DNA from: Strix aluco
Lineage: Eukaryota > Chordata > Aves > Strigiformes > Strigidae
Direction: 5' to 3'
Length of the DNA: 64,000 nt
Assembly (NCBI RefSeq): GCF_031877795.1
Contig: NC_133948.1
Coordinates: 15,144,948-15,208,947 of the forward strand
Numbering within the stretch: the stretch's first letter is position 1; every line of letters starts with the position of its first letter. Below are positions 28,301 through 62,977 of the stretch, one piece after another. The notes under the pieces are model-generated. The model did not search any database. It was given only the letters and a program-made list of their open reading frames with translations, and was not told the DNA's origin. A program made the translations under genes and the position numbers.

Positions 28301-31300
28301 AGCCACAACTCCCTGTCTTGTCCAGAAAAGCTGCAGTGGAACAACTCCAGGCTCACACTGGCCTAAATGAGGCCCCAGGTGTCCAGATTAGAAAGGCATC
28401 CAGCTGGCTCCCCACTCACGCAGCTCCACGAGTTACTGCTCCAAATCACTCCAACCCGCAGGCTGAGAAATAAAGCAGCAGGTACGGGCAGCTGTCTGGC
28501 TCTGTCCACCTTGATGCACGCCCATCAAAAAGGCAAATATTTCATCTCACCTTCCTGTAAGTACACATATCCCATTCAGAGACCACCAAAACTACCGTGA
28601 GATTGGAAATACCCCCTGAATGTCAACAGGTATTCCAGGATGTAACTCTGAAACACAATTACCAGCCCTTACTCCTCATGCATGGTCGTGCAGCCAGCCA
28701 GACTGCAGCAGCAAGACAGGTGTGAAGGTGCTTCCCCCCGGCTTCTCACTGGGGTGTTTGCTTCAGAGTCTAATTACAGCCAATTAAAAGAGCATCTGTA
28801 GTCATGAAGTGTCTCTCTAATGATGTCAGAGTGAGAGTCCAGATTTATCTTCTCTCCCCATGCAACTTCTAGCATGAGTTTTCTTCCTGAACGAGACACC
28901 AGCATAGGCGAGATGCAACCACCAGTAAGGAGCAGGTCACCCAGCAAAAAGATTTACATGTAATCCTTCAGCTCCCTCCCTGGGCCGGGAGATGTGGCAG
29001 CCCAAACTCCTCCAGAGCACACGAACAGCAGCAGGCTGTGGTTAGAGATGAGGTTGATGAGGCCCTGCAATATGAGCAGCTTAAGAAGTTACCACCCCGC
29101 AGCCACGAAGTGGGAGCCGACTGTGAGAGCGCTCCTTCTCCTGCTCATGGCTAAGTTAAGCTGGTTGACGACAGCCACCCCCAGCAGGGTCACTCAGATT
29201 CTTTCAATCACATGGATATATTGCAAACACTCAACCAACTGTGCCCTCGCAGCTCTGGCTAGCTGGAGCTCACCAAAGAGGCTGGGTTGTGTCAATACTA
29301 CCAGCAGAAGTGACGCAGATTAGTGGGGAGCCAATAACTTTAAGCAAGAAGATGGCAATTTGACAGTGACTTTTCCTGACATGACTGTACTTAAAATGAC
29401 AGCCTGGAAGTGTCTTGCTGATGAATGATGCAGCAGATGCAGAAGGCTAATGCTTTGATGCGGTAACAGCTGGGAATATGCCTCCCTCCCTGCTGAAGGT
29501 GGAAACTGTTGCTTCTTGATGAGTATATTCTACAGGGTGCAGAAATGCTGAAGCCAAACTAGGACACGCTCTGAGCTGTTACAGAACAGCGAATCGTCCA
29601 GAAATCTTCCTACTTAACCCACAAGACTAACACAAACAACAGGGTGAATTCCCTGCATTAAAAAGGCCAAATGTTAAGAATAATGTAATGTTTCCTTTGA
29701 CTGTAATAAAAATGCGTCATTAGCAAGGGAGCTCACTGACACAGAACTACCAACACCAAACACTTCACAGGGATTCAGGGACAGGTTCAATATTTACATG
29801 ACAAAGAAAGTGCCATCACAGTTTAGCAGTGTTAAAAAGGTCAGAAAAGGCTTTGCTTTAGTTTAGGATGCAAACCCACCCCTTAACGAGGGTCATGCCA
29901 CTTCACTACAGGATTTCTTTGCACCTTTTCCCGAAGCATCTGCCCCTGGACAAGGGGAGACACGGGTTCAACGCAGTCTGGCAGCTCCTCTGCTTCTACG
30001 CCCATGCACCAGGGCTGAGGAACGCGCACTTAAGCAGCACTGTGGACTCACCCAGAGACCATCCACTTTTACCCCACAGAGGCAGAGTGTGGTCCTTTCC
30101 AGCACGGTCACACAAGGCTCTGCACAAGATGGTGAGAGGGCTCTGGAGCTTCCAGCCTCCCAGCTCATCTCAAATCCCCGACCACCCCCGGCTGCAAGTC
30201 TGCCAAAACCTCCCAGACGCTGTGGGTTCAGACAGGAAATCTCTGAGGACACTGACAATTCAGTGCAGGGCAGCCTGATCCCGACCACTGCTCTAACTGG
30301 TACCATATCATCTCAGCGGCTGTGGCGGCGATGCCCCGTAGCACAGAAACACCAGGACTAGGTGCTAATGCCCACAGGGACGTTACTGACGGAGACGCTA
30401 CGAGGGTCACGTCTCCTGCGTGACTAACGCAACCTGCGGTCCAACCTGCCATCACACCAGCTTGGCTTAAACTCTGCCCTAAGCCTCACCATCTGAGACA
30501 CTGATGCCTCAGTAGCCTAAGGAGGGGGTGAAATGTCCCCCCGACACACCGAACAGCAGCTTGGCTTTTGCAGCTGGTCCTTCCATCCAGACTACCATGT
30601 TACAGGCTGTACCTCTCCTCCACCAAGTCCTGCTGAGATCTTCCCTCCATCAAATCCCTCCAAGCTCTCGGTGGGCTCAACTGATCAGATTTAGAGGTCT
30701 GTGTGCTGCTCAGCCTGCTCGCTCGGCTCACACGGGATTTCTGTGGAGCAACACCACTGGAGAGGTGAGCAGGATTTAACTCTACAACCAGGCATTAGTG
30801 TTAGAGCAGCACAGCCAAGGATGAGGCACCCTGCTGTCCCCTGGCCATCGCTCCTTTAAGTCTAATTGTTTAATTAAATGTTTGACTTGGTAATACAAAT
30901 GCAAGGTTTCCAAGTAATCTCCCAGGAATCAGCTCTCTCACTAGCCAATTCTCCACTTACACCTGACCCATTTGACAGAAGTCAATATCCAATAACAAGT
31001 GTAATTGGCAAAGAAACCTGCCCAAGCGCAGAGGAGCTTGCCAGCCTTCCCCTGCAGCTCCGCTCTGCTCCAAAGAGCTCTCACTTCCCCTGCAATAAAC
31101 AGCCTTCAGTGACTGGAAACGCTACAGGTTCCTGCAAATACGCTGGCATCCTGTGCCACCTCTCGGGAGCCCAGCACTTCAACCCCACAGCAGAGAAGGG
31201 TCAGGGGGAGGTTCTGGGCTAGCGGCGGGGAAGAGGAGCATGACTGCCAGCCCGGCACTGCCGCTCTGAGAAGGGCTGGCTGGAGTGCTCCATCTCCCAC

Positions 31301-34300
31301 GCAGCCCGACGAGATGGGTTTTATTGACTGCCAGAGTTGTTCAGCGATTGATTCAGAGTCGCCTTGGGGACTCACAGACTGACTCAGCAACGGCGAGGAC
31401 TGGAATAGCTCTGTAGTGCCTGCCTTCCTCCTGCTCTCCCAGGTCACCAGAGCCCTGCCTCCCCAAATCTGATCCCTCAGAAGGTCAGGAGAGTCTCTAC
31501 CCCACATACACCCCAAATCTCATATGTATGCACACACACGTCCAATACTTAAGCCTGTTTTTGCCAAACTATTGGCAAAACAACAGTTGGCTTCAGCTAG
31601 CAGTGTGGGCACAAGATCTGCTCAGACGTTGGGCTGCATTAGGAAGAGCATTGCCAGCAGGTCGAGGAAGTGACCCTTCCTCTCTGCTCCACGCTGGTGA
31701 GGCCATGGCTGGGTGCTGTGTCCAGTGCTGGGCTCCCCAGTACCACAGAGACAGGGACGTACCGGAGAGAGACCAGCAAAGGCAAGAGACAATGGGCACA
31801 AACCAAAATACAGGAATTTCCATTTAAATATTTTTTTTTAAATACATTTTTTCTGCAAACGTGGTCAAACATTGGAACAGGTTGCCCACAGAGGTTGTAT
31901 CCAGCCTTGGAGATATTCAAAACACAACTAGACGTGATCCTGAGCAGCCTGCTCTAGTCTACCCTGCTTTCAGCAAGGCAGGGCTGGGACTAGACAATCT
32001 CCAGTGGAGACCTCAACCATTCTGTAAGTTCTCACCAACACCTGACTCACATTTTCTCTAATCACCAAAGTAATGAATCCTATGGAGAAAACAGAGCTTC
32101 TACCCCTTGTAGGGCAAGGAGGTGGTACTCCCAGAATGAAAAAGTTCAAAAGTGCTCTTGGAGACTCACAGCAGGGGAGCAGCCGCCATTCATCCCCTGC
32201 CCAAACTTCAGTTCCACCCAAAGCCACGTGAGCAGAGGCCGTTTCTGGATCCAAGACCCCACGTCCTCTCTTCAGGACAACACAACTGACAGCAGGCTAG
32301 CTCTTCCCAAGAGTGGAAGAAGCAGCAGCTCCCTGGTAACAGTAGAAAGCTGGGGGGGTATCAAATCCATAAATTTAAGGGGAAGTGATGTACCAGTGCC
32401 CTCTGCTGCCGACAGTTTTTATTCCCTGACTGAACAGAACCCTGAGGGCTCAGAAAGCCCACTCCCTGTTTCAGATGCTTGCTGCTAAGTAGTAACAGCA
32501 TTGCTCAACTCTAGGTTTGTGTCTGTGCCAGCAGCTCAAGAGCAGAAAGCATATGAAAAACTGCAGCACTTACAGCCACGCTACAGGCTCACACAGCACT
32601 GAGAGGCAGGCGAGAGGGATCCACGCTCGGCTCGCTGCGTACAGGCAGCACGGGACCGCAGGCTATCGCTGCACAACCCCTCACACACCCCTTTGCAGCC
32701 CCACACTCCCTGCAGCAACTCCCCCTCCTCAGAGAGCCCTGGCCATTTTCTTGTTTGAGGACTCACCTTGAACCTGGGCACTCAGCTTCTCCAGGTCCTG
32801 CTCTGTCATGTGGGAAAATCTGCAGTTGGACCCAAAATCACACTGTCCTGGAACAAAAGCCATGGAGCAACACGTGAGCCGCACACACAAGGTCCTCCCT
32901 TATAAATGTGCATGCAAACCCAAGGTCCATTACACCTGCACGCTGAACACACACCCAAGACCTTCAGTCCCTCCAAGACACACATACCCGGGCTCTCCAG
33001 ACCAGCCTTGGGTCAGCTCATGAAGGTGCTGCTGGAGCTCAGGCAGTTATTTCTACCTCAGAAGAACTCACCTGTTTGCAGAAACTTCCGACAAGGTTTC
33101 TTGGTTTGCTCCTCTTGCAGGATAGCGGCAGCATCTGGGGGAGACAAAGGACAAACCAGGGTGAAGATCTCTCACACAGCAATACCCCATCCTATGGTGG
33201 TCCCAAACAGGTCAGTTGCCTAGTGGGAAGCCATTTGACATGACAACCAGGAGCTTAAGCCACAGCCAAATTGACAGTTAACAGTCCCTGTTTGCACCCC
33301 TGGCCTGAGTTTTTCACTGACTTGCAAATATCACCTTCTTTGCTTTCTGCTTCATGCTTTCTGCCCACACCAGGAGGAAGAAAGAAGCATAACACAAAAG
33401 CAATGATGCTGCTGCACTTCTGTGCAGCAGAGAAAGACCAGGCAGACTCACAGAGCTCTCAGAAAAGCTCTGTGCGAGGCCTCACAGAACCCTGTGCTGA
33501 GTCTCCAGTGGACACCACTGAAATGGTCCTTCACCTCCCAGAGACGTCCTCAGGAAAGTGAGCCCCAAAGACACAGCAGCTCCCACAGACTGTGGAAGAA
33601 CTTGCACTGGCTGATGCCAGGCCACGGAGTCTGGAGACAAGAGGAGACAAACCCCCTAATCAGGGATGGCATGAGGAATTTTATCAGAGGAAAATCAAGG
33701 GTTGCAGCCTGGTAAGAAGACAAGTACTAGGTGATCTGCCTCACCATCACTAACCCAGCTAGAACTGTGCTGGGCTGGGGCTGTTGGTCCTCCACACTTG
33801 GCCAGTACAGAGAACCTTTCCAGCTTCCACATGCGGGTAAGCAGACAGCAGAGCCACCCAGAGCTCGCAGGGTATTCCTCACCCAGCTAGCCAGGAGACA
33901 AGCACAGCCCGCAACTTCTGATCCCGAGGAACCAGAAGGAAGCAGAGGAACATACAGGAAATGGTTGCATGATCACTTTAACCCAAACTAAGTCTTTGCT
34001 ACTGCCAAAATACCCACTTCTGCGCTCTTGCTCACACCCTGGACACACATTCCCACCGTATTCATCAGGCTGGCACTAAGACACATGTAACTGCGTGGCG
34101 AGCCAGGTCAGAGCACTGAGCTGGGTGAGAAGAGTCCTGTTAAACAGGCAAAAGACACAGGGCTTTCCTCCCAGCACGTCCTGACACAGCCTCCAGCCCC
34201 AGAATTCCTCCTCTGCCAAAACCTAAATGCACCTAGCCCTCCTCATCCTCCTCTGTTTGCCCCCTTTGCTAAGACAGGTTAGAGCATTCCAGTGCTTTGA

Positions 34301-35024
34301 GCTTCTTCCCCAGCCCTTTCATCCTCCTGTGCTCTCCAGTCAAGCAGTCACATCCTCAGCCTCTCCCACAGCCACCCTCATCACCGACATCTCCGCCCCG
34401 TGCAGAGCACTGCTGCCAGCTTCCTGCCCGTTCACACCACACGCTCCAGCCTGCCCTCCAGCCCGCTTTCTCCACCCCACCCCCCCCATTTCTTGCTCCT
34501 CCCATGTCAGAGATCAACTCTGGTTTGCAGAAGGCACCTAACTCACCTTCAGAAACTGCAACTGACTTTGTTCTCTTGTCTCCCATCTCAGATTTGCTCA
34601 TGATGCCAAGAGAGCTTTATCTTCAACTCCTGGTCTCAGAAACAACCTCCCTATCTCTTCCACCTCATTTCAAGTCCCAGCTGACATCTGCAGTTTCCCC
34701 TTCCCACATCCAGACACATGAGGATTTTGCCTCTGAGACTGCTTGACAGCAACAGTATAAAGTCCACAATTCACTGGCACAGACAATCTGAATATAAATC
34801 ATCAGTGCTGATTTACTTTACCTATCCCCCACCCCACACCTCATCCATCACCTCCCCAGTCCCAGAAAGGGAGGGGCAGACAGTTGGTACTACCCACCTC
34901 GGAATAAGTCGTACCAGACTCTCTTAGCCCTGAGATGCTGCACTCCATTGAGGTGTTTCTTCCTGTTGTGAAGGTTGTCCTGAAAGGACCTGTCACAGTA
35001 GTCGCAGAAGTATCTTTTTCCCAT
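22352..35024 (-). CDS. ZMAT5: Zinc finger matrin-type 5 (U11/U12 snRNP 20-kDa protein), complete
   Basis: Coding exons in order on the minus strand are 35024-34898, 33134-33072, 32847-32767, 26216-26105 and 22481-22352. All introns are GT-AG and the joined frame codes 170 aa, exactly the human length. An amino-terminal U1-C/matrin-type finger has C7, C10, H24 and H30. A CCCH finger follows with C57-x8-C66-x5-C72-x3-H76. The helical segment [13 protein letters not shown] is conserved, and the tail is proline-rich with repeated GWP (…[10 protein letters not shown]…, ending LQWG). The protein is known as a component of the U11/U12 di-snRNP of the minor spliceosome, in the nucleus. A first, non-coding exon probably ends at 39679; the ATG exon would begin at 35031 with only seven 5' UTR bases. 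All ZMAT5 introns look U2-type. Intron 26217-32766 contains a CR1 fragment. Confidence 0.97.
28118..28141. repeat. 24-base A-run in ZMAT5 intron
   Basis: A perfect plus-strand A homopolymer in the intron between the third and fourth coding exons. No retroposed body was recognised next to it, so it is not called a SINE or a processed copy. Confidence 0.9.
31630..32025 (+). mobile_element. CR1 LINE fragment (3' part) with internal deletion
   Basis: The sequence follows the CR1 3' region as I recall it: an ORF2-end segment (GGCTGCATTAGGAAGAGCAT…, CTGGGCTCCCCAGTAC), then GGGCACAAAC, ATTGGAACAGGTTGCCCACAG, GGAGATATTCAAAACACAAC, and an end CTCAACCATTCTGT. About 200 bases of the usual sequence are missing around 31785, between the GAGAGACCAGCAAAGG part and the AGACAATGGGCACA part. 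It is 5'-truncated, as is usual for CR1. It lies antisense in a ZMAT5 intron and is diverged, so it is old. Confidence 0.9.
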
Positions 35025-39379: not shown

Positions 39380-40330
39380 TGACCCTAGCAGGGGGTGTCC
39401 CCTGCCCCCCAGCAAGGCGCCCCACCCTCAGCCGCCCCTCGCGGCTCCACAGCCGGCGCCAGGCCCGTCCGGCGGCCGGGGAGGGCCTCCCCCAACACGC
39501 CCTGGAGCTGGAGCGAAGGGTTTAGCGCAGCGGCCTGCGCCAGCGGGGCTGACTTCACCTCAGAAAAGCAGGAAATAAAGACTCGGCGGAAGCCGCTGAA
39601 GGGAAGGGGACGGCGCTTTGCACCCGCAGCCCGGGCGAAGCCCCTCACACCGCCCCCGCCCCGCCCGGCCGCACTCACCCGCCGCCGCCAGGCCCGGGGC
39701 TGGGCCGCGCGCGCCGCCTACACCCCCCAGGGGGCCCCGCGCGGGCCGCGCAGGCGCAGAGCGCGCGGCAAGATGGCGCTGCTGCGGCAGGCGTACGGCG
39801 CGCTCTTCCGCCGCACCTCCACCTTCGCCCTCACCATCGTCCTGGGCGCCGTCCTCTTCGAGCGCGCCTTCGACCAGGGCGCCGACGCCATCTTCGAGCA
39901 CCTCAACGAGGGGGTAAGGAAGGGGCCGCGCCGCGGGCCCGCCCGGGCGCAGGCCTTGGGCCTTGAAGGTCAGGCCGGCCCCGCCTGGGCACTGCCGCGG
40001 GGCCCCGCGCCTCGGCCTGTCCCCGGCCTCCCGGCGGGCGGTGGGCCCTCCCCCGGCTGAGTTGCGACCTCCCCGAGGAAGCCCCGAGCGCCAAGGCCGC
40101 GGGGGGCCGCAGTCCGGCGCTGCCCCGCCGGTGGAGGCTTTGCCGGTGTCTTGGCAGTTGGGGATTCGGTGTGTTCACGGGTTTCCCCGGCTGCGGAGCC
40201 GCTGGGGACAAGGTGTCGAAGGCAGTGGGGGGATGCAGGGAGGTTAAAATGGATTGAGCTCGCTTTGCGCTCTGTGTTCCTCTGCCGTTCACGATCTGCC
40301 CTTAGAAGAGGAGGGATAACGGCTGGTGAA
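39380..40330. promoter_or_regulatory. CpG-island bidirectional promoter of UQCR10 and ZMAT5
   Basis: CpG-dense DNA surrounds the UQCR10 start codon and the predicted ZMAT5 first exon. An NRF1-like palindrome, CGCGCAGGCGCA, is at 39747-39758 (one mismatch to YGCGCAYGCGCR). A YY1-like AAGATGGCG at 39770-39778 overlaps the UQCR10 ATG. No TATA box is seen. NRF1 and YY1 sites are typical of promoters of nuclear genes for mitochondrial proteins and of divergent promoters, so shared control of both genes is likely but inferred. Confidence 0.75.
39679..39770 (-). other. ZMAT5: Predicted non-coding first exon of ZMAT5
   Basis: On the minus strand a strong donor, GGCG|GTGAGT, with the intron starting at 39678, lies about 95 bases from the UQCR10 ATG. 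A matching acceptor (TGCTCTGCCAG) ends at 35032, seven bases before the ZMAT5 ATG. The 5' boundary is a guess set by the UQCR10 start. Confidence 0.55.
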
Positions 40331-44966: not shown

Positions 44967-47900
44967 TCAGGAAGGAATCATGCCTTTATTCCGCTTTCTG
45001 TCAGCCATGACTCGCCGATTATGGTTAGCTCTTGTGCTTTTGTTTGCTTCCTTCTTCCTTCGTTCCTGCACTGTTTCCCGGTTCTGCCCGTGGCCCTTCA
45101 CATTCCCAACAACAGCAGAGCTGTCGTGCTTGTGCCTGGGGTACACAGAAAAAGGACATCACAACAAGCACACTGCATGTTTGGGGGGCAAAATACACCG
45201 ATCCTGCGAAACAAGTGGGTGTGAGGAGTTCAGCTGTCAGGCCTTGAGCCTTGGCTCTGCAGGGCTTCTGCAATAGCTGAGTATCAGCATTAGCCACACA
45301 ATGACTGCATCCTTCTACACATTGAGTCTGGCAGCTAAAACCAGCTATTAAACTGTCCTGAAATCCCTGTGGGAGCTGTTCAAGCTCTGGGAAGCTGTGC
45401 TCTCCAAGATCCTATCTTACACAGGGTTCTGCTGCTTATGATAAAGGGACAAGCCCACCCATTTGATGGGATAGAACAACCAGCAGTGAAGTAAAAGCTG
45501 GGTGAGGAAGTTACCACCACTGTGGTAGTGACCCTGATATACAGGAATGTTAAGGAACAGGTATACCCTCAACAATTCCAGTCAGCAGCAAAACACCTGC
45601 TAACTGCAGAGCCATGGTTTCACCCCGCAGAGGGAGATGCTTACTTACCCCTTCCTCGCGAGGTAGGCCAGCCGCCTGGCTTCAGCTCTCTCCCGCAGCA
45701 CAGCTGGGTCCTGCACAAAATGGTCCTGCCATGGGAAGGAACGAAAGAGGTCAGTAAACTCATCAGCATCGTGCAAAAGGCTAGAGCAGGAGGTGATCCT
45801 GTTGGACCATGGAACAGAGTCATTGTTCATTATCTCTTCCAGATGAGCCAGCAGCGTTTGGTGTCAGTGACTTCAAACACAAAACCTGGCAGAAAACCTG
45901 AGACTTCTTCCCACATCCTACCTCTGCCAGCAACACCATCAACATCACTATTTTCAGTATATCCATGACAACAGAGCATTAGTGACCCTCAAAGTGTTCT
46001 GCTGGCATCATCTGCCTATGGAATAAAAGAGATTAAACCTCTCCATGGAGTAAGTGTCATTGCTCCAGTATGGTTAGCCTGGGAAGCAGCGGATGGCTGT
46101 ACTCAGGGGACATTTCACAGTCCAGCAGACCGCAGAAGTAGCCACTCTGAAAAGCAGCTCACTCTCCACACTGCTGTTAAAAGATTCACTCTCTGAAAGA
46201 GGAAATCTGCTCCATATCGCTCTGCAAGTGAAGCAGATAAGACATATGGTAAATCTTAACGCAGCTCCAACCACAAACTGAATGTCACCTTTGTTCTTTC
46301 CTTTTCAGCTTCCTCCTCCTCCTCCTCTTCATCCTCTTCCTCTTCTTCCTGTCCTTCCTCCTGTCCTTTAGGTCTCAAGACCTGGGGAATTGTGAACGGC
46401 CTGAGAATTAAGACACAAACCAGTCAGCAATGAAGACAGTACAGCCACAAACATTTCACTGAACAGCATATCCTTTTCGGTTTGCATCATGTCTTTCAAA
46501 AGTGAGAATCTACAAATTTCATGGACTTGTTTCTGAAAAAAGAAAAAAAAGAGACCTAATAGCTAATGACACATTTACTATGGGCAATTAATGAATACAT
46601 GTTCTTCACTGGGGAATGTTCACTATGAAGTTGTTACTGAAAATAATAATAGTTAAAAAAAGGAGCAGGTCAGGAAAAACCTGAAACCTCACAAGGAATT
46701 TCTCCAAGGAAGCAACTGCTTCCTCTGGTAGAAGAGGATCCAGGCACAGCCCCAAGGCATTAGTAAGGAGCATACTTTGCTAGGCTTGAGCTCACCAGTC
46801 AGGGAGCATCTACTGTACAAAGACAAACCCTCAGACCTCGAGCTCAAACTCAAGACAGAAACATTAATGTTCTGAAAAGTGCTGTGCTCTAAATCCTCCA
46901 TGACTGGTCAGTGGTTATCCATGGAGCCCCAATTTCATTGCTGTGCCCCAGTTTCATACAAGGGGAAATACTTGGAGAAATCCATCAAGCTTTATGAATC
47001 ACCCTGAACACACAGAGCAGCAAAGGGCCTGGGGGGTTGGAGGCAGAATTTACCACATGCCTGTAGCTCTTCTTTAATATATACAGGTGTGTGTGTGTGC
47101 TTAAATTCTGTTGGAATTCAGATCCACCATTCCACTGCCAAAGAAATAAATGTTAAAGCAGAAAAGCCTTTGTTACTTCAAACCTATAGATCTAGCTTTT
47201 AGCAGTAACATCCACTAATTGTTCCTACTGCCTCTCTAGGAGCAGTGAGCACTGAGCACCTGAAAAAGGGGAAAAGATGCAAGTGCCACACTGTTACAGG
47301 CAAACGCAAAAAGGATTTAAATTGAAGCCTCACCATGCTTTAGGAGGAAAAAAAAAAATAAAGGAAAACGGACAAAGGAACCCCAAAGATGCATTTTGGT
47401 TTGAGGTTAGAAATGGTGGCATCTTCATAATACATCAGAATTCAAAAGGCCACTTTCAGAAATGTTAAACCAGCTTTTAAAACATGTTTTCTATCTCCAA
47501 CTCTTATTTCTAAAATATTCTACAACCCCCAGCCCAAACTAACCCTTTGCTTCCTAAAAGTTAATTGTCTCCAGCTGTCAGTCATCGTGCAGAGAGCTGT
47601 GCAGTCCATCAAGGACTGAATTCCAGGCATGGGCGCTCTGAGATGTCAGAGGGGGTTGGCAAGGAGAAGTAGTCCGTCTCTACAATTTTCCAAATTTTGA
47701 AGTTTTCCTTTGCTAACCCGCCATTTTACATTGCCCAGCTACACTCAATCCTGATTAGTCAAGATAGTCCATTTTCCCCTGCTGCAGGATAGTTTTCTGT
47801 AAGCAGAAGCACTGCTGAGTGCAGGTTCCAACACAATGGCAAATTCCTCTCTTAGATTTGTTAATTAGTTGACACAAGGGCTGTCCTGCAGACACAGAAA

Positions 47901-50900
47901 GTGGAAGCCTGAGAAGGGCCTGGGTGCATCCCATGGCAACACTCCCTACCAACAGGAGAACAGAGACCCAAATATTAGAGACCCAACGTTACAGAGAAAG
48001 CAGCAGAAAAAGGGGTGGTTTGAAGCATGCACGTCCTCATTGAGAAACAGAGCCAAAACCCAGTGTTGAACAGGTCTGTGCGAGCCAGACAATTCTAGGT
48101 GGTGATTCCCACCAACCTCCCATTCCCTGGCGCCACAGCACCTACCTCCTACTGATCAGCTCATCATCTGAGTCAGCATCGTTTGCCCCCACTTGGTTTC
48201 CATCGTAAGTGTCGTCGTACTCGTCCTCATAGTCCTCTCTGTAGAGCTGAGCCTCCCCTTGCTGCACAGGGATCTCCTCCACAATCACACTGTACTGGCT
48301 GTAGCGCTCCTTCTGCTCAGCAACCAGGCGTTTGTCATTCAGCAAACTCCTGGTCGTGTCCTTCTCCCTCCTGCACTCCACAGCACGGGAACAGAGGGGC
48401 AGACACAGAAAGGCAGTGTAAAGATCTTCTACAGAAGTTACTTTTTTTTTTTTCTCAAAGTGGAAGGTGAAGCAACAGAAGTCTCATCTCAAACTCCACA
48501 AGCACTACTTAAGCCTACCTATTTCCCCTCTGATTTATAACAGGGCTGTTTGTCTGGCTACTAAAACCGTCTACTCCTGGCTTGGAACAAAGTCATTTTT
48601 AAACAGAAGCCCAGCAAGATTACACAGCAGATAAGAACAGGAATTGGAGACTGCCACTGTCATCTGAGACAGAAAGGAAGCTTTTACAGGAGGCCAAATG
48701 CAATTATACTCAAGCTGAAATTTGGCCAATATCCAAACAACACAAGAAGTCCCATGAATCTTGAATGGCAAGCTGCTAGGGCTAAGACTCCAGTCTCCAA
48801 GACAGCTCTGCAAGGCCCAGAGTGCCCTCTAACACCATGCTGCAGTATCGTCTCACTGCGGTAGCACGCACAGCTGCAAATCACGGGCCAGAGCTGCATT
48901 AGAGTAACTGCTGCACAGACACGTATGTTCCTGTAGTCAAGAACCTCAGCTTAGAAATGCGAGATGCAAAAGAGGAATGTAGATGGGAAGAGCCAAAAAT
49001 TTACCAGTGCAGCAAGTAAGGATTAGAATAAGCACAACTAACAATGAAAAGAACAAAACAGAGGTTGAATCAATCGCTAGTCTACTATCTCAAAGCACTG
49101 CACGTACAATTTTTTTTTAAGAAATTTAGGAGGCAAGTAAATTACAGTCATTTTAAAGAAGGGAAGACCAAGAAACAGAATTTTGCCAGAGGTATTAAAA
49201 AACAGCCACCGACATGCTGTGTCTCAAGCTGCACAAGCATAAACTCTTTGAAGTCCCATTTTTCAGACCAGCCAAGTACATCCTTACAGCAAAGCAACAA
49301 GGGATTCCACCGTCAAGTAGTCACAGGACAATTTGCAGCCCTCAAAGTCTAGGAGGAACATGCATCAGTGGTCTATTTGGCATCTGGATATTATCAGAGA
49401 AAGAACCCATCCAAGGCAGACTGTCAGCGACTCAAGAATGGATAGGCTTACGTGACATACTAGCAAGCACTGGGGAAGTGATCTAAGCAGCCTGATTTTC
49501 ATTAAGAATCTCAAAGCAAAGTAACACTGCAGATAGATGTGGTTCCCCTCTCTTCCATGACTCACTCTGTTACATACCTGCATTTAGCTGCAAAATGCCC
49601 TACAAGGCATGGGGTTAGTTCACACATACCTAGGCTGGGATAACATCTTCTGGTGGTATTCAGCATGAGACTGCACTAAGTATTAGATAATTGTTTCCTG
49701 TTGAGCTGGTCTGATGACTGCAGAAGAGCTGCAATGAAGTGTTTCAGACACCAATTCCAGGAAAAACAGTGGAATAACTCCTCTAGTCCCGTGGGGTTCA
49801 GGACACGCTCTGACTTCAAGAGACAGATTCACCTAGCAATTATGGCTGGACAGGCACAGACAAGCGTGATCACTTTTCAGGATCAGCAGAGAATCACTTA
49901 TATGCTAGTACGTTCATTTCCTCATGCTTCTGTCCCTCCTCACCCTGGTGTGGCTTTCTCTTTCACATTAACAGTCCCTGCCCCAAACTGCTTCCACTTA
50001 TCCGCACAGCAGCTAGCGCAATGGGACCCGACCTGATCTGGCCCTTGAAGCACTAGTGTAACATCATGCTTAGGCAGCAGCAGCACTATAAACACAAGCA
50101 GAATTTGATGAGCAAAAGATTTTAAGAAGGAGAAAAAAAAAAAGTTTAAAAAAATACTGATACAATTTGAAAGCAAAGCAGATCTCAAACTAACTAGGAG
50201 AACCCTGTTACCCCGACGCTTGGGTAAAGCATCAAGCTTCTTGCTTGTAGAACAAGGACTACTGAGGAAGTTGCACTTTGAGTGATGAAAGGACACTCTT
50301 CTATTCATGGAGTTGTGAATGTTAAATCCTAGAGAGCAAGGTACTATAGCTTATCCTTTGACTTAGGTATGGTCAACTTTGGGCATAGGGTGTACATTGC
50401 AGATCACAGCCAGTCACCTCCAGGTTTTAAAAACCACTCAAAACATAACTAACATGTCTGGAGTCCTGCAGAAAGAGTGTTCTCAGCATAAGAACTGTTT
50501 TGAAATGAAGACATAGCCTGAGGGAGGCCAAGAGACACCAGGAACAGCAGCAGTAAGAGGATAATCCCAAGAGGTCACGTAACAGTTACAGCAGAAGAGC
50601 TGACAACTGTCCCAAGGAGTGGTGTTACCACTGGAGAGGAGACAGAGGCTCCCTGGCAGCAGCCAGAGGACAATGCCACGGGAGCAGGGTCCCGCAGCCC
50701 AACTCAGGGATGACTTAAAAGCTTTCAAAGCTCTCCAAGTGATCTGCAGAGAGAGCTCCGAGCAGGGTTATTCCATACACTGGATGCACTGTGCTGCTCT
50801 CGGGCTTTGTTACCCACATGGGCAAGACTTTGGGGAGATGGGAAATAACCAAGCACACCTGGGCACAATGTCCTGCTGACAAGGTGCCTGCCTGCACTCT

Positions 50901-53900
50901 GAGCAAGGCAACACGATGAGGACAGAGATCGTGTCTATGAATTCTTAGCTATGGACACTTCAAAAGTCATTGCCTTGGCCAGAGAGAAATTATTTTCTTG
51001 CCTAGCCAAGCCAGTATAAACACTATAGCAAAGCTGCCGAGAAGCTGTTTGTCTGGACTTCAGGACAAAAGTGGTTTTCTCCTGAGAGTTTGATACAGCT
51101 TTGCATCCAAAACCTTAACTGGGAGTTCCCAGCGTCACGTGGCTCAGTCTCCAGCCAGACTTTTATTTACATTCTGTGTAAATACGTACAGATATAAAGA
51201 TCACACTTGGCTGGTTAGAGAAAGAGTTTAAAAAGAATCTGAAACAAGTCAACCATATTATAAAGATACAGTTGACACCAGTGGGAGCCAGTAGGGCAAT
51301 GCCCTAACCGAAATTCGCACGGAGCGTGGCACAGCACAGCATGCCAAACTAGGCAGAAGGCAAAGGAAAAGCCTTTCTGCAGGAAGCCTACAGCAGCACG
51401 AACAACAAAAGTAGTCTGAGCCACTGAGTGTCTTCAGGTTTTGAAGTAGATAGATGTTGAAGCTTCACCTGGATCTAAACCAAATCATTATTTATTCTCA
51501 GTTCTGAGTCACGACCCCAGGCTCATAGAGACGGTTACTTTTCAAGGTTTGTTGTTCAGTACAGGTTTAACATTAAGACCAAGAAGCGAGTGCCTGACAT
51601 TACAAATGAGCTTGGCAGAGCAATCTCTAGCAGCATACAGAGGAAAGCCAATTAGGAAAAACACTAACTGAAACCAAACCCCTAATAATATTTCATTTTA
51701 CCTTCTCAGAGAAACAGAAGAAACAGGTGGGAAACGTTTCTGATAAGCCTTACCCCCTGCCAACAAATTCCTGCGGGAGGTTTGTACGAGAAATGAATTT
51801 GCAGGTTTGCAGATATTTATTGCTCCTGACAGACAGGGTTAATTAAGGGTGCATGATACTCACCGCTTGCCTTTTTGTATCCGAGAAACATCCACTGAAT
51901 CCCTACTGAAAACATCAAACTCATCATTCTGGAAAACATTATAGCGAGAAGTGACTAGAGGAGTAGGGTCTGGCTTCAGCTGTCTGTTAAAAAAAAAAAA
52001 AAAAGAAGAAAAAAGAGAGAATAAAAGCAAGGGTGAACTAAGGAAGACCAAGTCCTCTCCTTCCTAAGACCTTGATTTATTCTTTGCCAGTCTCAAAGTC
52101 ATCCAGAGCACGCCAAGATCCTCTTCGTGGTGCTGGCTGACTGGGTCACGGATTCCAATCCCTTCATTTCATATAGAACGTGCACAACCACTACATGGCA
52201 CTGGTCTAAGATAAAAGGCACAGTGTTCAAAGCTTATCTTTGTGGGGAAACTAAAGCAACTTACAGAAATCAAAAAGAAAATTCTTCTGTTCATTTAAGA
52301 ATAAAACTGTACAGCAGCATGGAATATTCAACAGACTGCCTGGTCTCAAAACAGTGACTCAGTAAAGCCAAACACTAAGTATGATGAATTACACGCTGGA
52401 AAAAATTCCAATAATTTGCCGTTGTTGATTTCTGGATATTTATCTCCCTATGGTTCCTTCTTAATTCTTTCTCAGGGTTCCAGGTTTATGTTTGTTCAAC
52501 TTACAAGTCAAAAGACCATTATTTCTACATTCATTTTGTTGGTGCTGTTCGCTCAGCTGGGCATCTGAAAATGCTGCTGTGCTCACTTCTAAAACCAGCA
52601 GTGATCAAAATTCTACATTTGCTATTGAACTGACAGTTTTGTTTCAAGATGCAAAAGGCAGGAAAAAAAATCCAACTCCATCTTCTGTAACTGCTGGCTG
52701 TGCAGAAAAAACCCCAGCCCTTCCAAAAGCCCACCCCACGTGATTTGTGCCAAAGTCAGCAGATCTGACTGTGAAAGCATGAAGATTGTTGCAAAACTAA
52801 GATTTTTTACATCATTTTTCTGATAAAGATGCATTCCTTTTTTAATGCAACAATGAGACAGTCTGCTCATTCCTCCATGAAATGTGAACAAACAGCACAT
52901 TCACATCCTGACACTCAGTCAGAAACTGCTGTTGCAGCATAAACACACGCTAGCAGCTGCAGACAAACTAAAACAACTCAATTCCACTGCCAGCTATAAA
53001 CTCTACGTCCCATGTACAACCCAGAGAAGCAAGCAAAAGCCTGGCAGGTTTGTCAAAGGGTAGATAAAAATGGATCTGAATTGCTGTTTCCAATCTCTTT
53101 CTGCTTTAACTTCAACAGCAAAACAGTAGCCTGTCAAATACCGGATTTGACCTTGCATGTTGAATTTCAGCTGAATTAGTTGCTTTGAAGATGGCCTTTC
53201 CTGCAGGACAGCTGGGATTTTAACACCTATGACCCTGTTCTCTGCAGCAAAATAACTTTTGAAGGCAACACATTCTATTGCCTGGCCCAGGCTAAGCCAG
53301 TGTCCCCATGATGGAATTTTAATGGTCCTTATTTGAGCATTTAATGTACAAGTATTTTTGTCCCCATCACAAAACACAACCCAGCACCTGCTCTACTGAA
53401 ATGCTGAGCAGTGAACATTCCAGTTCTCTGCAGGGACACAACCAGGGCAGAAAGCGAGTGGCAGATGGCAATGAGAAGCTCTCGCTGCAGCTATCCACCC
53501 CAAGAAAACACACATGCAACTTCTTAGAGCTCTACAAGCATCTAACCTTCAGTAAGACTGATGTTAAATGATAACCCACAAACAAAAGGCATCAAAGCCG
53601 TGCCAGAAGTTGTCCCACACCTTTGCATTGTTCGATCCAGCTTATCCAAGTATGGCACCAGCTTATCTTCTAGAATGTTGTTGATCACTTGCTCCGCATT
53701 GTAACTGTACTCTTCCAGGCAGGCCAGGATGAAGCCCTCACCAAGGTCTGGCAGCAAGTCTTTCACTTGAGAGATCAGAGAGTCCAGCTCCACCCCTGAC
53801 ACCTTGGCAATGGGCGCAGCAGCTGCACCAGCACACTACATGTACCAAAGAGAATTGGTGGCGTTACTGGAAAGAGACAGCAGCTGAGGGAAGGCACGTT

Positions 53901-56900
53901 AACAAAAGGGAAAGCAGCAGTCTGGGTCATCAGAATTTAAACACAAAGAAGTCAAAGACTGAAGTCAAAAGAAGAGAAATCAGCTAAGTTTTTTATACTA
54001 CACAAGGCCTATGACACAGACTTGGGCATACAACTACTTTTGTCTGTCCCCGAGACAGCAAGGATACTCTGGAAAATCCTCTCCTCAAGTAACATATGAG
54101 CTGTGCATTTAAAAAATACCCACATGAACTACAGTGATGAAGCACAGTATTTGAATAAGCCACAGCAACAGGAATCCCAGGCAAATGGGACTTAGAAGCA
54201 ATTTGCTCAAAGATAAAACCAGGATTCAGTTGTAGCTTTGTTTTTCATTTCACAAGGCACATGGGCTGCACTGAAGTCTAGCAAAGGTAAGAAATGAGAC
54301 TAAATCTCATGTAATCCCCAGAACCAAGCAAACCAATCCTCTCTGCACAGACGAATGAAGGACTGAAAGAGCAGAGCCCAGCTCTACTCACCTCATCCTC
54401 TGATGCATATGCAGCCCCGAGCTCTTCCATGTCCTCAGCAGTGCTCTCTGCTATTGCTGATGCTCCATTAGATGCTGCTGGTGGTGTTGGATCTTTAACG
54501 ACTTGTGCTTTTTTCCTGTCTACCCCTTCCCACGCACTTTCCACTGCTTGGAGGATATAGGCTGTCCTGGTCTCATCTCTAAGAGGACAGCATTAAGGAC
54601 ATTTCTAGATGCACATATTCAGACCTTGCCTTGAGGTAACTATGCTATTTGCAGCGACGCCCAAGACTGTGACTACATCAACATTCTCCCCGTGACCCCT
54701 TTTTTTCTTTTCAGAGAAAACTTTCCATCACCCATTGCCAGTCATGCAGCTTAACCAGAGGCAGCAACAGTGGAAATGCCACAGGCGTGAAGGAATCTCA
54801 GAGCAGCCAGGTCTGCAAAGCCCCAAGGTGACAGCAAAGGATACAGTGTGGAGGATGCTTGCTGAAGCAGACTGACATCATCCTCAACAGGAAACAGCTC
54901 ATCATAGTCACGGAGAAATCTGAAAACGCAGAAGCAAATTTAATCAGTCGAACTTAATAAATTACCAGCAGACCTGTCACACACTACCATCCCTGCCATG
55001 CCACTTCGACTTCCTCACTGCTCACGGAGGAAGACATATAACCTCTCATGCAATACTGGATTCCAGCGTGTGTTGCCATGTCTGATTTTGCTCCCATTAT
55101 ACTGCAGCAACACTTCTCCCCAAGCCATCAGAGCCAGTTGCAACACTCCTCATGATGTTAAGACCTGTAACCCAGTGCTGCATTACAGAGAAAATATGGT
55201 TTATGGTTTGAACATGATCAGAATGACAGCACTGTCAGGAGGACAAGATCAAATTCCCAGTTCTGCCACTTACTTTGCATCCTCAGCATTAGCACTTAAT
55301 ATCTTTCTGGTCTGGTCACCCCACTTGAAAAGCACAGATCAGTAATAATAGTCTAACTTGTCAAGGTAGCTAATAGCTAAATTGCTATCCTCCACTTTGA
55401 AAGCCTGGATTAAAGAGAGTGAAGAATAACATTCTCCAGCGTCATGCAATATCCTCCTCACCTTTACAGTAAAGTCTACACTGCAGTCTGAAATCCTCTT
55501 GCAGCAGTTCTCCCAACTAGTTAGAATGATTTCTAACTCCCAAATGCATCATAATGCCTCATAATAATGTCTCGGGCAGTTCTATTGTAAAGAATGGAAG
55601 AGGAAGGCAAGCTGACCCTCCCTTGGGCCTGTTTTCAGCCAGACTCACCTCCTTTCCTGAAGCACCGAAGTGAAGATCTGTAGAAATTCCTCAATAAAAG
55701 GCTGAATATTCTCACAGCTGCAGAAAACAATGGCACAACAGTGAAACACGCAGTGGTAAGCCTACCACATTGCACAATCTCCCCATTCTGTCTCACTAGC
55801 CAAACTAGTCCCATTTATACATCAAAGGAAAATCCCATTTGAAAATAGATTTCAGACCACTTTTTGGCTTTCACAGGAGCAAAGGGTCAAATGGAAACAA
55901 GTTTCTTTTATGGCTTCAGCAAACATTTCAGCCAGCTAGATCTAAAGCTGTATCACAGTATTACAAAACTTGAGACAGACTTTACAAATCACAGTTTGAT
56001 GCCTCAGACTTGCAACAAGCAGAAAAGGGTGTGTAACGCTCTTGTAATTGTGTTCTTATTATACGCCTTGCGATTATACCAGTGAATGTCCCAGAAAGTA
56101 TGTGCTCACCTATGTAAGAACACATGCCAAGCAAACTCCTATTGCAACCTTTCTGTTATAAAGCCTAAACCTCCTATTGCTGCTGATGCATCAAGCCTCA
56201 CAGCAAGCCAGAATGCTCTCTGCAGTAGATCAGCGTTAAGAAAAACGTATTTCTCTAGACGCCAGACACATTTTCACAGTAGCCCTAGCTCTTGTCAAAC
56301 TGGCAATGAGTTTCTGGAGCTGTCCTTTCCTACCTCTGAAGTACATATAGTCCTTAATACTGTGGAATCTGAACACGTTACACTCTTTGGTTCATTTATA
56401 CTTTCAATATTCCGGTGGGTACCAAAAGGCAATACTCAGGTAAGCGAGGGTAAGGCAAGACCGCTACTGCTCCTTTACAGCCTGGATTTACAGCACAGAC
56501 AGATTGGGTGGTAAGAGCTCAGGTCTCAGAGGAAGTCAAGGAAGCAAATCCAGGGGTCTCATAAGAAATTCCACCAACAGACCCTCCTCATCTTCTCGGA
56601 CAACTCTACTGATATCAAACCAGGGAAAATATTCAAGCAGAACAAGAGCTGCAGAGACCAGTAATCTAGAAAACCTGTAACGAGTACAGGCAAAGAGAGA
56701 CCAGCCCAAGGGAGCACTGGCCTTGCAATCAAGATCCAGGTTCTTGGCTCTGTCCCCGATATGCAGCACGATTTTGGGTCATTTCAGTTCATTTCTCTAT
56801 TTTAAAATAAGGATGGCTATACTTGCCTTCCTTTTGAGATTACTCATAGATCTGTCAGTTAACCATTTTCACAACAGCAAGGGGGGAAGAACTAGGTCAA

Positions 56901-59900
56901 GGCACCACTATCTAGACTTTAAATGACTGTTTTCAGTGATCTATAACACTGCATCACTTTTATCATGGCATCTCAGTCAAGGTGTCTACACACACCATTA
57001 GAATTTGCATCTTTGTCATAAACTGAGTTTAGAAAGCTCGTTGGACCACAGCATTATCCCACTCTAGTGGGGTCAACACACAGCTCACCTCACCAATTCT
57101 AAATCATACAGCTTCATCTGGAACATTCCTGCTTTGATCGGAGCCAAAGTCTTTGGCTACAACCCCAAAACAAATAACAGTATCTGTTCATTTTTTCCAG
57201 TAAATCTGAAAACGAGGAAACAATCTCCCCCACAACGGCAATCAAATAACTGGCTAGTACCACAGAGCCCAAGTGCCAATACCTGCTTTCTAAGATGGGC
57301 TGCAGACAGACTTGGTTTATTAGGATGTGAAAAGCTTCTATCATCTTCTTTCTGGAATGCGAAATTCTCCTCCACAAATCAGCAAAAACACTTCAGAGAG
57401 AGTAAAAGACACTGTTGGTGTCAGCATAAGAAATCTGAATCTTCAACACACCTTCACTCCAGAGTTAACACTCTAGAGGAGGAATTTCATTAGCAGAATC
57501 ACTTCTTTGCTGTAAAGACCAGAGATTAGAGCCATTTCACAGTAATTAAGGAAAATCCATGCTCTAAACAAAGTTGGTCTCAATCACCAATTGTCCTGAC
57601 AGCTAGACACATGATATCTCAACTGTACCAGGACAGTCTGTGCCTTAAAATGAGACCAATCTATACGTGGAGATATCACTCATGTTTTCACAGTGTTACA
57701 ATTTGAATGCATCTCCCATCAAATTTCTTCTTAGACAGCAGTGAAAGAAATCATTAGTCACCCTACTGCCCAGGAAAATTTAGAATTAGAAAAGCCATCT
57801 CTTAAAGAGTTCTTTGAAGCAGCATAAAAAAAGACTGAAAGACTCCGCAGAGGTGGGTAAAGCACCATGAAGTGAATTTTTAACTAAGCCCTGGGAGAGC
57901 CTTACTGAAAAGGCAAGCCTTTGAAGACATTTTCACCTGTTATCCTCATAACGCCTCTTCTTAATTGCAGATTCCAGCTCAGCAACTGCCAATTCATAAA
58001 ACGAAGCCAATCTGTAGAAAGAGGCAACAAACCAGTAACTGTCGACTGACGTTTCAAAAATCATTTGGTAAAAAGACAAATCAAACGGTTAACGTCGTTA
58101 AATTCTTCTCACTAGCAGTACTCATTAGCATTACCCCATTTTTGTTATTTGTTCCCTGAAACACAAGCAAGCAAATGTGCACTAAAGAGCAGCACTCTAA
58201 GGAAACCATCAAGGTATCTTTGAAGATGTAGGCAAAGAAACGCATTTGAAAAGCGCCACGCTACCCAAGGGAAGAACAACCTGCCCACCTGAGAAACACC
58301 CCAAACACAAATCTGTAGTCTGCTAAGAGCTGATGTGCTTGAGTCCATCCTGAAAAAGCCCCTCCCGCTCCAATATCCTTATGGGCCTATCTTGCTGTAT
58401 GTTAAAAAGGGGGTATGAAACAGGGTATGATTTCCAATAAAGTCCTACCGGTCTTGATATTCAGATCTGCTCTAGGTGGGCATTTAGATGAAGGGATCCA
58501 ACATGCAGAAAGCCTGAGAGAATTTTCAATAGGATGGGGCAGGGAGGCAACAAAGAAAGTCAGTTTGCTCTAGTTTCACATTTTCCGTGCCAGGCAGCCC
58601 ACGCAGACCCTTTCCATCAGGGATGGAGCACCAAGAGATGCTGAGAAACACCCTCATAGAGTAACAGCCAGTACTGCTTCATCAGTAGCTAGATGTTACA
58701 AATAAGGGTTTACAGGACTTTGCACAAAAGCCAAGCTGAACTGATGAGCGGGGGCTCCATTAGGAACATTATGTCCATGTCTCATATTAAGAGCCAAATA
58801 TGTTAAATGAGTATTCTTGAGGCAAATGTAGCAGAAGCTGGTTGATACTTTTAGTCAGGGGGATAAATTAGCAAGTGCCAGCAGACTGATTCAGACTCAG
58901 AGGTTCCAAAAAGATGACACGTAAATCAGTTTTCCCTCCCCACACTCCAAAGACCCAGCCATTAGTCCATATTGAGAAGTAATGAAAAGGTTGCTGTTGT
59001 CCCACTGCACAGAGATCAAGACTATTTTAGCACATCTCTGACATCAACAGCAGAATTAAAAGCAAAAGGCTTTCCTCCTCTGAGTAACCAAGCATGTAAG
59101 CAGTGCTGCTTGCCAATCCAAACAGCCACCAGCAGTCCACCAATCTGCTCTTCTTTCAATAACCAACTCAACAACATCCAAAGAGGACAGAAACCTGCAC
59201 ACCCCAGAGCGGCATTACTCAACCTGTGGTCCTTAAACCACTGGCAGCTGTAAGACTTCAGAGGTCTGCAACACGATTGGAAACAAAAGCAAGAGACAAA
59301 TGTGTGTTCGTTCACACTAACAAGCAAACAAAACAGGGGAAATAAGGACAATAAATTAACACTCCACTTGGTCCTAAACAAAGGCTGCTATGGCAAGACT
59401 CTACAAGATGATCTGGGGGCTTAAAACACCTGGAGCACGCCGGGTAAGTGCCACTTGAGGACTCGCAGCCTCTGTGGGAACACACTCTGCTGCCTGGTGT
59501 TTGAGCCCATCCTGACTCATCACCACCATGATCCAGAGTTAGACAGGGAGTTAGCTGTCAGCCCAGCTGTGACAGCGCTGGCTTGTCATCCTCTCCCAGA
59601 CACTCAGCTTTTGCCAAACCTCAATAATATTCTCTAGCATAAAACTTGGGCATAATATCAAACAAAAATGTTTATTTTCAGACCTTGATGGACTATCACT
59701 CTGAAACACTTTCTACTTCCCTTGCTTTGGGTCCTACAGCAGGAAGCTCCTTATGTCCACAACTCTTCTGCTCATCCCTCTCCACCCTTTCCAAAGCACA
59801 CCAAGTACTGTTTAGCTGGGTTTTGAAATCGTCACGGCTGCTGGCTCTAGGATCACTCATACATAATGATGAGGGTGAACATACAACAGACAAACTCTAG

Positions 59901-62900
59901 ACATCCCTATATTAATTTTTTATTATTCTATATTCCTGTCAGCGTGAACCTAGCATCCTCTAGTTGCATTAAATCTATCTATGCTTTTAACAATGAAGGG
60001 ACTTGGACAGGACACAGCAGCACATTCAGTATTTTTACTTTGCCAAGACAAGCTCTGTCTGCAGTCCAAGATGTACCTGTAACAAAACTCATGTTTTTGG
60101 AAGGTCTGGCAAGCCAACGGGAAGACATCAAGAAATGCCCAGAGTGTCGTGCAAGTGTCACATAAGTACAGCACAATATCCTTCAGCTCCTGAGAGAGAA
60201 AGAGCAATTACTGAGAGAAAAGCCAGACAAGTTTTCCTAGGAACACATTTCCTAGGAACACATTTCCTAGTCACTAACAGGGACACATCATGTTCAGACC
60301 AAGTCTTTTTCCTGACTGCACAAAGAGACTGATACCAATTATAAACACATGTTACTGGGTCTAGAGGCAGACACAACACCTCTACTAAAATTTCTATCCT
60401 TTAAAGAGCTATAATGCAATTCCAGCTGCTCACTCTCATTAAAGATTCTGTGAAATTATGAGAATCCTCATCATATCCTGTTTTGGACAGTGGTTTTGTC
60501 CTCAATATATATTCCACATAGAGTATTCTTCCCCATCGAGCTGGAAGCACTGCATAGCAGTAATACAGGAATTAGAGGGAGGATTTCTGTGGTCTGCTTC
60601 AGTGCAAGATGCACTTTCAGGGTGGCTGTAACTCCTGCCACACACAAATTGTATGACTAAGATTTTGTAGATGACCATGCTCACTGACATGGGGCCTGTC
60701 TTTATACAGCACCCAGCACAAAAAAATCCCTCTTGATTATCTAGAGTACACTGTTGTTAAACAAACATTTCTGAAGAAAAAAAGTCAACTCTGATCTCAC
60801 TGTCAGGGTTACATGGAGACTTCTGCTGGATACTCCATTACATTACTTATAAGCTGTTTAAGCAAAAAAGATGCCAAGTTTAAAAAGAACCCACAATACG
60901 TGGATATGGCTGAAATGCACACGAGCAAAGCAACCAGCTCACGGTGGAAAGGCTTTATCATAAGTCATACGACAGTGAGACAATGACAAGGAACCACATG
61001 CTGTATGAGCCACAGGTACCTGGGATGAGAATGACCCTCTGGTCTTACTGCTCCATTGGCCATTTAGCCTGCAGGACTACAAACAGTAAAGTGCAAGAAG
61101 CAGTGGTTCTACCTGGAGGGGCATGTTCCCCGGGGTCACACTGACTTTTTCTTCCAATTTCTGGGGCTCAGCAGAGGCTCCTTCACACTGCAAACCACAC
61201 TTATGCAAAATATTGTTGAACACCTAAACCAAGAGAACAGAACAGTGTTAAAACAGATGGGAGAAAGCAGTGGGACATGTTTTATCATGTCAGCAATCAC
61301 TGTTATGATGACATATGCAATGTGGGACTATTTCCATAGATCACGGAGCTGTGTAAGATGAAAGCTGCAACAGACTCTTGCAGGCTACAGCTGGAAGGGC
61401 CACGCTGCGCTTCTGAAACACCATGCAACTTGCAAGTCATGTAAGTGGAGCTGCATATGCTTGTGGGGCTGAGACAGGGATTGCAGCTAATCCAAAGCCT
61501 TAGCTATGTGAGAAAAATCAGCCAGCAAGGCCAATGCTGGGAGGCCATGTGGGATCCCTATTTGCAAAGGAGTACTGGGGCAGCTGGGAAGTTAACACCA
61601 CCTCCTGCTTATGAGCTAGTCCCCAAGCCTTCCTGCCCTCTCCCCTGAGTTAGCAGGACAGATTTTGTGGCTCTTGTTTAGGAACAAAGAACGTGGGTAG
61701 AAGCTGACAGAATTAGGTTCCGGATTGCTAACAACCTTTGGTGTAGGACCGCCTTAAAAGCAACTCCTCCGCATTTGGACCTTGAGAGATCTGTCAAACC
61801 CTCCTCCCAGAGGTAGGTGAATAGGTGGCTAAAGGTACTGAAGTTGCATACTTGAGATTAATGTTACTATTCTACAGGGCATGAAAGCTCCTAAACCTGC
61901 ACAGGTATCGACTCCTTTCAGTGACAGTGTAAGCACATAAATAGTTTTATGGACCAGTAATGACACGTCTTTGTTTGAGTTGTTATATCCATACACTTGA
62001 GACACGCTGGCATCACCCTGCAATGCTTACCAAAACACAGTAAAGAAATCAGTGTTCTGCAGAGAAACTGCCCTGACGTGGTACATCACAAAAAGCAAAT
62101 GGAATCTCTGCTCTCCTCCCCAGTAATTCATTTGAAGGTTTGGTCTTGCATCCTAGAATATTTTTTAAACGTGATACCACCTCTGAGATTTACCTCTAAG
62201 AGTTTCTTAACACACGGGAAAAAAAGAATGTGGGCTTCCAAGAAGTGAAGTGACATTATAGGTGCCTTGGGGTAAATGGTAAAATGGGTTTGCTTACTTT
62301 CGTGCATAGGTGAGCTTTTTGAGGACACAAACATGACGTAAACATGATGTTTTCAGGGTACAAAGATGTCAAGGCACCTTGATTTCCCCTTCATGTTAAA
62401 TGTGAATCCTGCTTACCGAGTCTGGGGAATATAAAAGCTGCTTATAAAAATGAAAGCTTAGACATGGAGAGGTGCTAAATACCTTTTATATGGCAACAAT
62501 GCATCCCTTCCAACAGATTTTCATTTACTCCTGAGAACCTGCAGTGTTAACGCTAACCCACTCTACTACATCAAGTCTTCGCTACCTCTCACGGTCTCTA
62601 TTTTGTTGTTTTAAGTTTCAATGCTCCCCCTGCTTGGGGGAGGGGATACAAAGAATACTTTTGGAACCACCTAATGAAAATTCCTTGAGATTAACTGCAG
62701 AGAAGGCCAGAAGCTGAAGGAAGGTAATAGGAAATCACTTCTAGATAAATGTTCAAAACCTGCTGACACACATTAGCGTGAACTAGAGAAAGTAAGCAAT
62801 AGCAAATAGATTCTCCTTGCCTATGACCACATCTGCTCCCTTCCACCCTCTAAGCCATGCCACATTTCCAGATGAAATCCGAGCCCTGGGCCAAGCAGGA

Positions 62901-62977
62901 AAGCAGTACCTGGAGGACAGTGGGCAGAGTTTCGTCTAGGTCACTGAAGTAACTTGGTTGCTGAGTGAAGATATTTT
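44967..62977 (-). CDS. ASCC2: Activating signal cointegrator 1 complex subunit 2, carboxyl-terminal 14 coding exons (5' part outside window)
   Basis: Exons on the minus strand are 62977-62910, 61223-61113, 60189-60077, 58011-57937, 57390-57283, 55717-55649, 54919-54845, 54578-54392, 53835-53621, 51983-51864, 48370-48146, 46400-46289, 45725-45649 and 45135-44967. They join in frame to 573 aa plus stop, matching human ASCC2 from about residue 186 to its end (GMIPS). The CUE domain is in exon 53835-53621 (partial-protein residues about 283-325), with the LLPDLGEGF and VINNILE motifs. A Glu-rich run (about 473-485) and a basic tail (QERRKKEANKSTRANHNRR) follow. ASCC2 is known to bind K63-linked ubiquitin through CUE and to act with ASCC3 and TRIP4 in alkylation-damage repair and in splitting collided ribosomes. 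The acceptor of exon 53835-53621 (ATGTAG) is weak. Intron 54844-54579 is U12-type. The amino-terminal exons should lie beyond 64000. Confidence 0.97.
51989..52004 (-). repeat. Pure T16 tract (minus strand) before an ASCC2 acceptor
   Basis: On the minus strand sixteen T residues run straight into AACAG, the acceptor of exon 51983-51864, making an unusually pure polypyrimidine tract. Homopolymers of this length tend to vary between individuals. Confidence 0.85.
54579..54844 (-). other. ASCC2: U12-type (minor-class) intron of ASCC2, 266 bases, phase 2
   Basis: The donor on the minus strand reads CT|GTATCCTTT (54844-54836), an exact match to the U12-type 5' splice site /RTATCCTTT. A branch-site match, TCCTTAAT, lies at 54599-54592 (consensus TCCTTRAY). 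The presumed branch A at 54593 is 14 bases from the terminal AG (54580-54579), inside the short distance window typical for this class. The intron termini are GT-AG. The other introns checked in the window have ordinary U2-type donors. Confidence 0.9.
60233..60270. repeat. 15-bp tandem repeat, 2.5 copies, in ASCC2 intron
   Basis: The unit TTTCCTAGGAACACA occurs twice perfectly and is followed by a partial third copy, 44 bases upstream of the acceptor (gene sense) of exon 60189-60077. The perfect identity suggests a recent duplication. Confidence 0.95.

Follow-up and report, generated by a model that had tools for sequence, protein, structure and literature searches.

Minor introns have long been recognized as a class, with hundreds of known members in vertebrates. 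The U12-type 5' splice site has the consensus RTATCCTTT, and the branch site, which lies near the 3' end of the intron, has the consensus TCCTTRAY or, in its 9-base form, TTCCTTAAC. The optimal branch-to-AG spacing in these introns is 11-13 nt (PMC3584512), and 94% of the human minor introns are conserved in chicken (as cited by PMC10639083). When U6atac or U4atac was knocked down in rat cardiomyocytes, minor introns were retained, with mostly unchanged total mRNA levels for the tested minor-intron genes; the Scn5a and Cacna1c transcripts that kept their introns were not targets of nonsense-mediated decay, and the amounts of the Scn5a and Cacna1c channel proteins fell (PMC8767276). The activity of the minor spliceosome is also tied to gene output through the USSE feedback element of the U11-48K and U11/U12-65K genes (PMC3584512).

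The 64,000-nucleotide stretch of Strix aluco DNA analyzed here (the window) includes most of the coding exons of ASCC2, and one intron of this gene is, with high confidence, an ordinary, well-formed U12-type intron that would be removed by the minor spliceosome; with the same high confidence, the nearness of ZMAT5, the gene for U11/U12-20K, is a matter of chance, without a regulatory role. ASCC2 extends over positions 44967..62977 on the minus strand, with 14 coding exons in the window and the 5' exons past the window end. When joined, the exons between 62977 and the stop codon at 44967 encode 573 residues counted from the first full codon. Human ASCC2 (6yxq_B, E 1.7e-126) aligns through its chain residues 186-429 with residues 1-244, without gaps, and a further ASCC2 entry (2di0_A, E 5.2e-24) is matched by residues 279-342, in support of the identity given to the gene by the first-pass annotation. 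One ASCC2 locus was found in the genome, where a 159-residue piece of ASCC2 matches here only; a spliced retrocopy, sought genome-wide with a 159-residue query as proof of the junction, was not found, the only matches being three exons of the ASCC2 locus itself. The 88-residue exon pair had no relative in single scans of viral_contigs and genome_contigs, collections that contain no other vertebrate genomes.

The U12-type intron, of the GT-AG subtype, occupies positions 54579..54844 of the minus strand (266 nt, phase 2), between an exon at 54845..54919 that ends in ...QQASSTL and an exon at 54392..54578 that begins with DETRTAYILQAV... (both minus strand). Across this junction the two exons continue each other on human ASCC2, with no residue skipped, and the frame is restored. 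On the minus strand, the intron starts with GTATCCTTT and ends with TCCTTAATGCTGTCCTCTTAG; the donor side at 54844 reads CACACT/GTATCCTTTGCTG and the acceptor side at 54579 reads GTCCTTAATGCTGTCCTCTTAG/AGATGAG, with the slash at the splice junction. The 5' splice site motif matches at 54836..54844, and the branch site TCCTTAAT is located at 54592..54599, where the branch A precedes the exon by 14 nt, that is, 1 nt above the optimum (PMC3584512). The intron splits the Leu codon (CT/A) of SSTL/DETR and hence is in phase 2, as are 8 of the 12 other ASCC2 introns; phase bias is statistical and represents weak evidence for the U12 class. The coordinates proposed in the first-pass annotation are exact, and the donor, the branch site, the 14-base spacing and the in-frame exons that it described are all confirmed. 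Two further AGs on the minus strand, at 54577 and 54572, follow the 3' splice site by 2 and 7 bases and are reachable from the same branch site; either one, if used, would shift the ASCC2 frame, so that errors at the 3' site could arise from them.

The likeness of this intron to GT-AG U12-type introns in general extends to the GTATCCTTT donor, the TCCTTAAY branch, the short branch-to-AG distance, phase 2 and the presence of flanking U2-like introns in the same gene. The difference is confined to the branch site, which has G first and T last compared with the 9-base TTCCTTAAC, and is no departure of importance. Given the extent of human-chicken conservation (PMC10639083), the ASCC2 minor intron may well be among those already catalogued. 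No statement in the main texts of the literature searched links ASCC2 with a minor intron, and the passages covered from PMC10112910, PMC10019834, PMC7062854, PMC13208669 and PMC4560434 do not mention one.

The comparison set consists of the 17 introns modelled in the window, 13 from ASCC2 and 4 from ZMAT5, and only 1 of the 17 is U12-like. This intron has 0/9 donor mismatches to GTATCCTTT, compared with 4 to 7 in the 16 others, and 0/7 branch mismatches to TCCTTAA, compared with 2 to 4; taken together with the borders set by homology, these counts give good sequence support to the U12-type class assigned at first pass. The matrices for the U12 donor, the branch site and the U2 donor are approximations. 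With these approximate matrices, this donor has a log-ratio of +18.1, compared with a range of -16.8 to -40.6 for the 12 other ASCC2 introns, and it ranks first among the 6,442 GT dinucleotides of the two strands. The branch score alone, with the same approximate matrices, is not rare, being reached at 16 of the 9,587 AGs, a set that includes the intron's own AG and the two AGs further downstream that share its branch site.

The abundance of branch-like motifs is one of the observations that could favor removal of the intron by the major spliceosome, with the U12-like motifs being a chance match. The other is that, across the whole genome, the motif pair by itself shows no enrichment and stays at or below the control level, with 11 occurrences, including the ASCC2 intron, at gaps of 221-251 (the spacing of this intron) compared with 27 in the backwards control, and 12 compared with 17 at gaps of 100-130. 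This explanation is nevertheless most unlikely, because the boundary set by homology has a U2 donor score of only -0.5, the lowest of the 13 ASCC2 introns, the 12 others having scores of 4.8 to 11.2 (approximate matrix). The bases at -1 and +4 (both T) and at +5 (C) account for the very poor U2 donor, and the best other U2-like donors nearby, namely, 54537 (score 5.7), which sits inside the downstream exon, and 54876 and 54624 (4.2), are off the L/D junction. The case for the U12 class derives from the exact coincidence of the donor and the branch site with exon borders that are set by protein homology; the window has a single strict combination of donor, branch and AG within 1 kb, and such a combination was found in 2 of 200 dinucleotide shuffles. 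Two further properties do not separate the U12-type intron from its neighbors. The pyrimidine fraction in the last 20 nt is 0.70, within the range of 0.50-0.80 for the other 12 ASCC2 introns, so that a missing polypyrimidine tract is not a distinguishing feature here. The predicted duplex of the branch region with the U12 RNA of the same genome (-6.5) was rejected as a discriminator because 2 of the 12 other introns have lower values (-7.6 and -7.5) and 1 has an equal value, so that the intron is not singled out among the 13.

The genomic neighborhood bears on the second alternative, that the linkage of ZMAT5 and ASCC2 is functional and reflects a co-regulated cluster of a minor-spliceosome gene and its target gene. 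ZMAT5 (22352..35024, minus strand) has 5 coding exons, and its 170-aa product aligns over its full length to 8r7n_E (E 1.4e-88), so that the identification of ZMAT5 at first pass stands, as does the statement that the two lie within 20 kb, given that 19,555 bases separate the low end of the intron from the ZMAT5 start codon. The description of the genes as next-door neighbors is inaccurate: the order in the window is ZMAT5, UQCR10, ASCC2, with 9.9 kb between the end of ASCC2 (44967) and the start of ZMAT5 and the first coding exon of UQCR10 at 39773..39913 on the plus strand (47 codons searched), and with UQCR10 in between, ZMAT5 and ASCC2 are linked but not adjacent. The short distance and the order of the three genes, which is the same on human chromosome 22, could point to co-regulation. 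However, UQCR10 is a respiratory-chain gene on the other strand, conserved gene neighborhoods are common in amniotes, and all four ZMAT5 introns are U2-like, so that nothing was seen that would tie ZMAT5 to ASCC2. A functional cluster is accordingly considered extremely improbable, and the view of the first-pass annotation that the proximity is probably due to chance is shared here.

With the ASCC2 intron regarded as U12-type, recognition of its donor and branch site by U11/U12 would be followed by removal of the 266-nt intron by the minor spliceosome. Should this fail, the ASCC2 transcript would keep the intron, and the frame would stop after 30 intron codons, at 54751..54753 on the minus strand, ahead of the CUE domain. 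This stop precedes six further ASCC2 introns as well as the CUE exon (53621..53835, minus strand; Pfam), which is the second exon downstream of the U12-type intron. By the usual rule, a stop ahead of further introns marks the message for nonsense-mediated decay. Less full-length ASCC2 would then be expected, whether the transcript stays in the nucleus, decays or gives rise to a truncated product; given that the retained Scn5a and Cacna1c transcripts in the rat cardiomyocytes were not decay targets (PMC8767276), nuclear retention or truncated ASCC2 appears as likely as decay. The likeness to the minor introns of Scn5a and Cacna1c is that retention under an impaired minor spliceosome is expected to lower the protein level, and the difference is that this was shown by experiment for the channels (PMC8767276) and is deduced for ASCC2. 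From the class of the intron and the retention in rat cardiomyocytes, it is a fair inference that the ASCC2 output depends on the minor spliceosome. If it does follow minor-spliceosome activity, one intron could account for part of the damage-response and ribosome-quality phenotypes seen in minor spliceosome diseases; otherwise, the ASCC2 intron is one more among the hundreds in vertebrates.

Knockdown or knockout of ASCC2 leads to a partial stall-readthrough phenotype, which could still be rescued by ASCC2 whose CUE domain was ubiquitin-blind, in contrast to earlier work cited in the same source, which had found the CUE interaction to be important (PMC7447978). Knockdown of ASCC2 also destabilizes ASCC1, and the recruitment of ASCC2 to DNA damage sites is reported to require the same CUE residues (PMC7447978). 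After alkylation, ASCC2 forms foci, and the CUE domain recruits it to the ubiquitin chains that RNF113A makes on the spliceosomal protein BRR2 (PMC7062854). The first-pass annotation had suggested that loss of ZMAT5 could lower ASCC2 and impair the responses to both ribosome collision and alkylation damage. Because the loss of ASCC2 gives only a partial readthrough defect (PMC7447978), any ribosome-collision phenotype may be modest, and the impairment of the collision response is probably weaker than that annotation implied; the need for the CUE domain at damage sites (PMC7447978, PMC7062854) makes alkylation damage a better target for the prediction than collided ribosomes.

A further scenario would have retention yield a CUE-less ASCC2 that keeps the 6yxq-matched part up to the junction, such that minor-spliceosome stress would blunt the alkylation response via its own sensor, in a splicing-to-repair feedback loop; we consider this very unlikely. 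The resemblance to the USSE genes is that minor-spliceosome activity would be tied to gene output, and the differences are that ASCC2 is not listed with the minor-spliceosome proteins in the portion of the table that was covered and that its intron is a plain U12-type one (PMC3584512).

The same genome (1.41 Gb in 202 contigs, searched for snRNA genes) encodes U12, U4atac and U6atac, which, with ZMAT5, represent parts of the minor spliceosome. The U12 gene has one match (147 bits), the U4atac gene also has one (84 bits), and U6atac has three, the best at 132 bits and the others at 40 and 34. The U6atac locus holds TCCTTT, and the complement of this motif, AAAGGA, would, judged by eye only, pair with the ASCC2 donor.

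A second U12-donor-like motif, GTATCCTTG (score 14.5), is located at 54067-54059 on the minus strand, inside the next ASCC2 intron; as this host intron has a clearly U2-type donor of its own and lacks a good branch site ahead of its acceptor, and 10 of 500 letter shuffles were at least as similar to the real donor region as GTATCCTTG is, the motif was rejected as a second U12 donor and is probably a chance decoy. The last ASCC2 intron (45648-45136) contains, at 45534 on the minus strand, a perfect TTCCTTAAC branch motif followed by an AG, which is isolated and probably due to chance, the placed donor and acceptor of that intron being U2-like. Past the window end, four ASCC2 donors, unscored, are U2-type by eye (CTG/GTGAGC, CAG/GTAATA, AAG/GTAAAT and TTG/GTTAGT); the exon ending in ...QKMI, with its donor at 64870 (a window coordinate, beyond the end), apparently has GTTAGT, with an unusual T at +3. 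The search against Rfam at gathering thresholds gave no match within the window. An EF-hand exon near 13.5 kb fits CABP7, and about 2 kb from this exon, at 15303-15526, lies a degenerate, telomere-like GGGTTA array, possibly an interstitial telomeric repeat.
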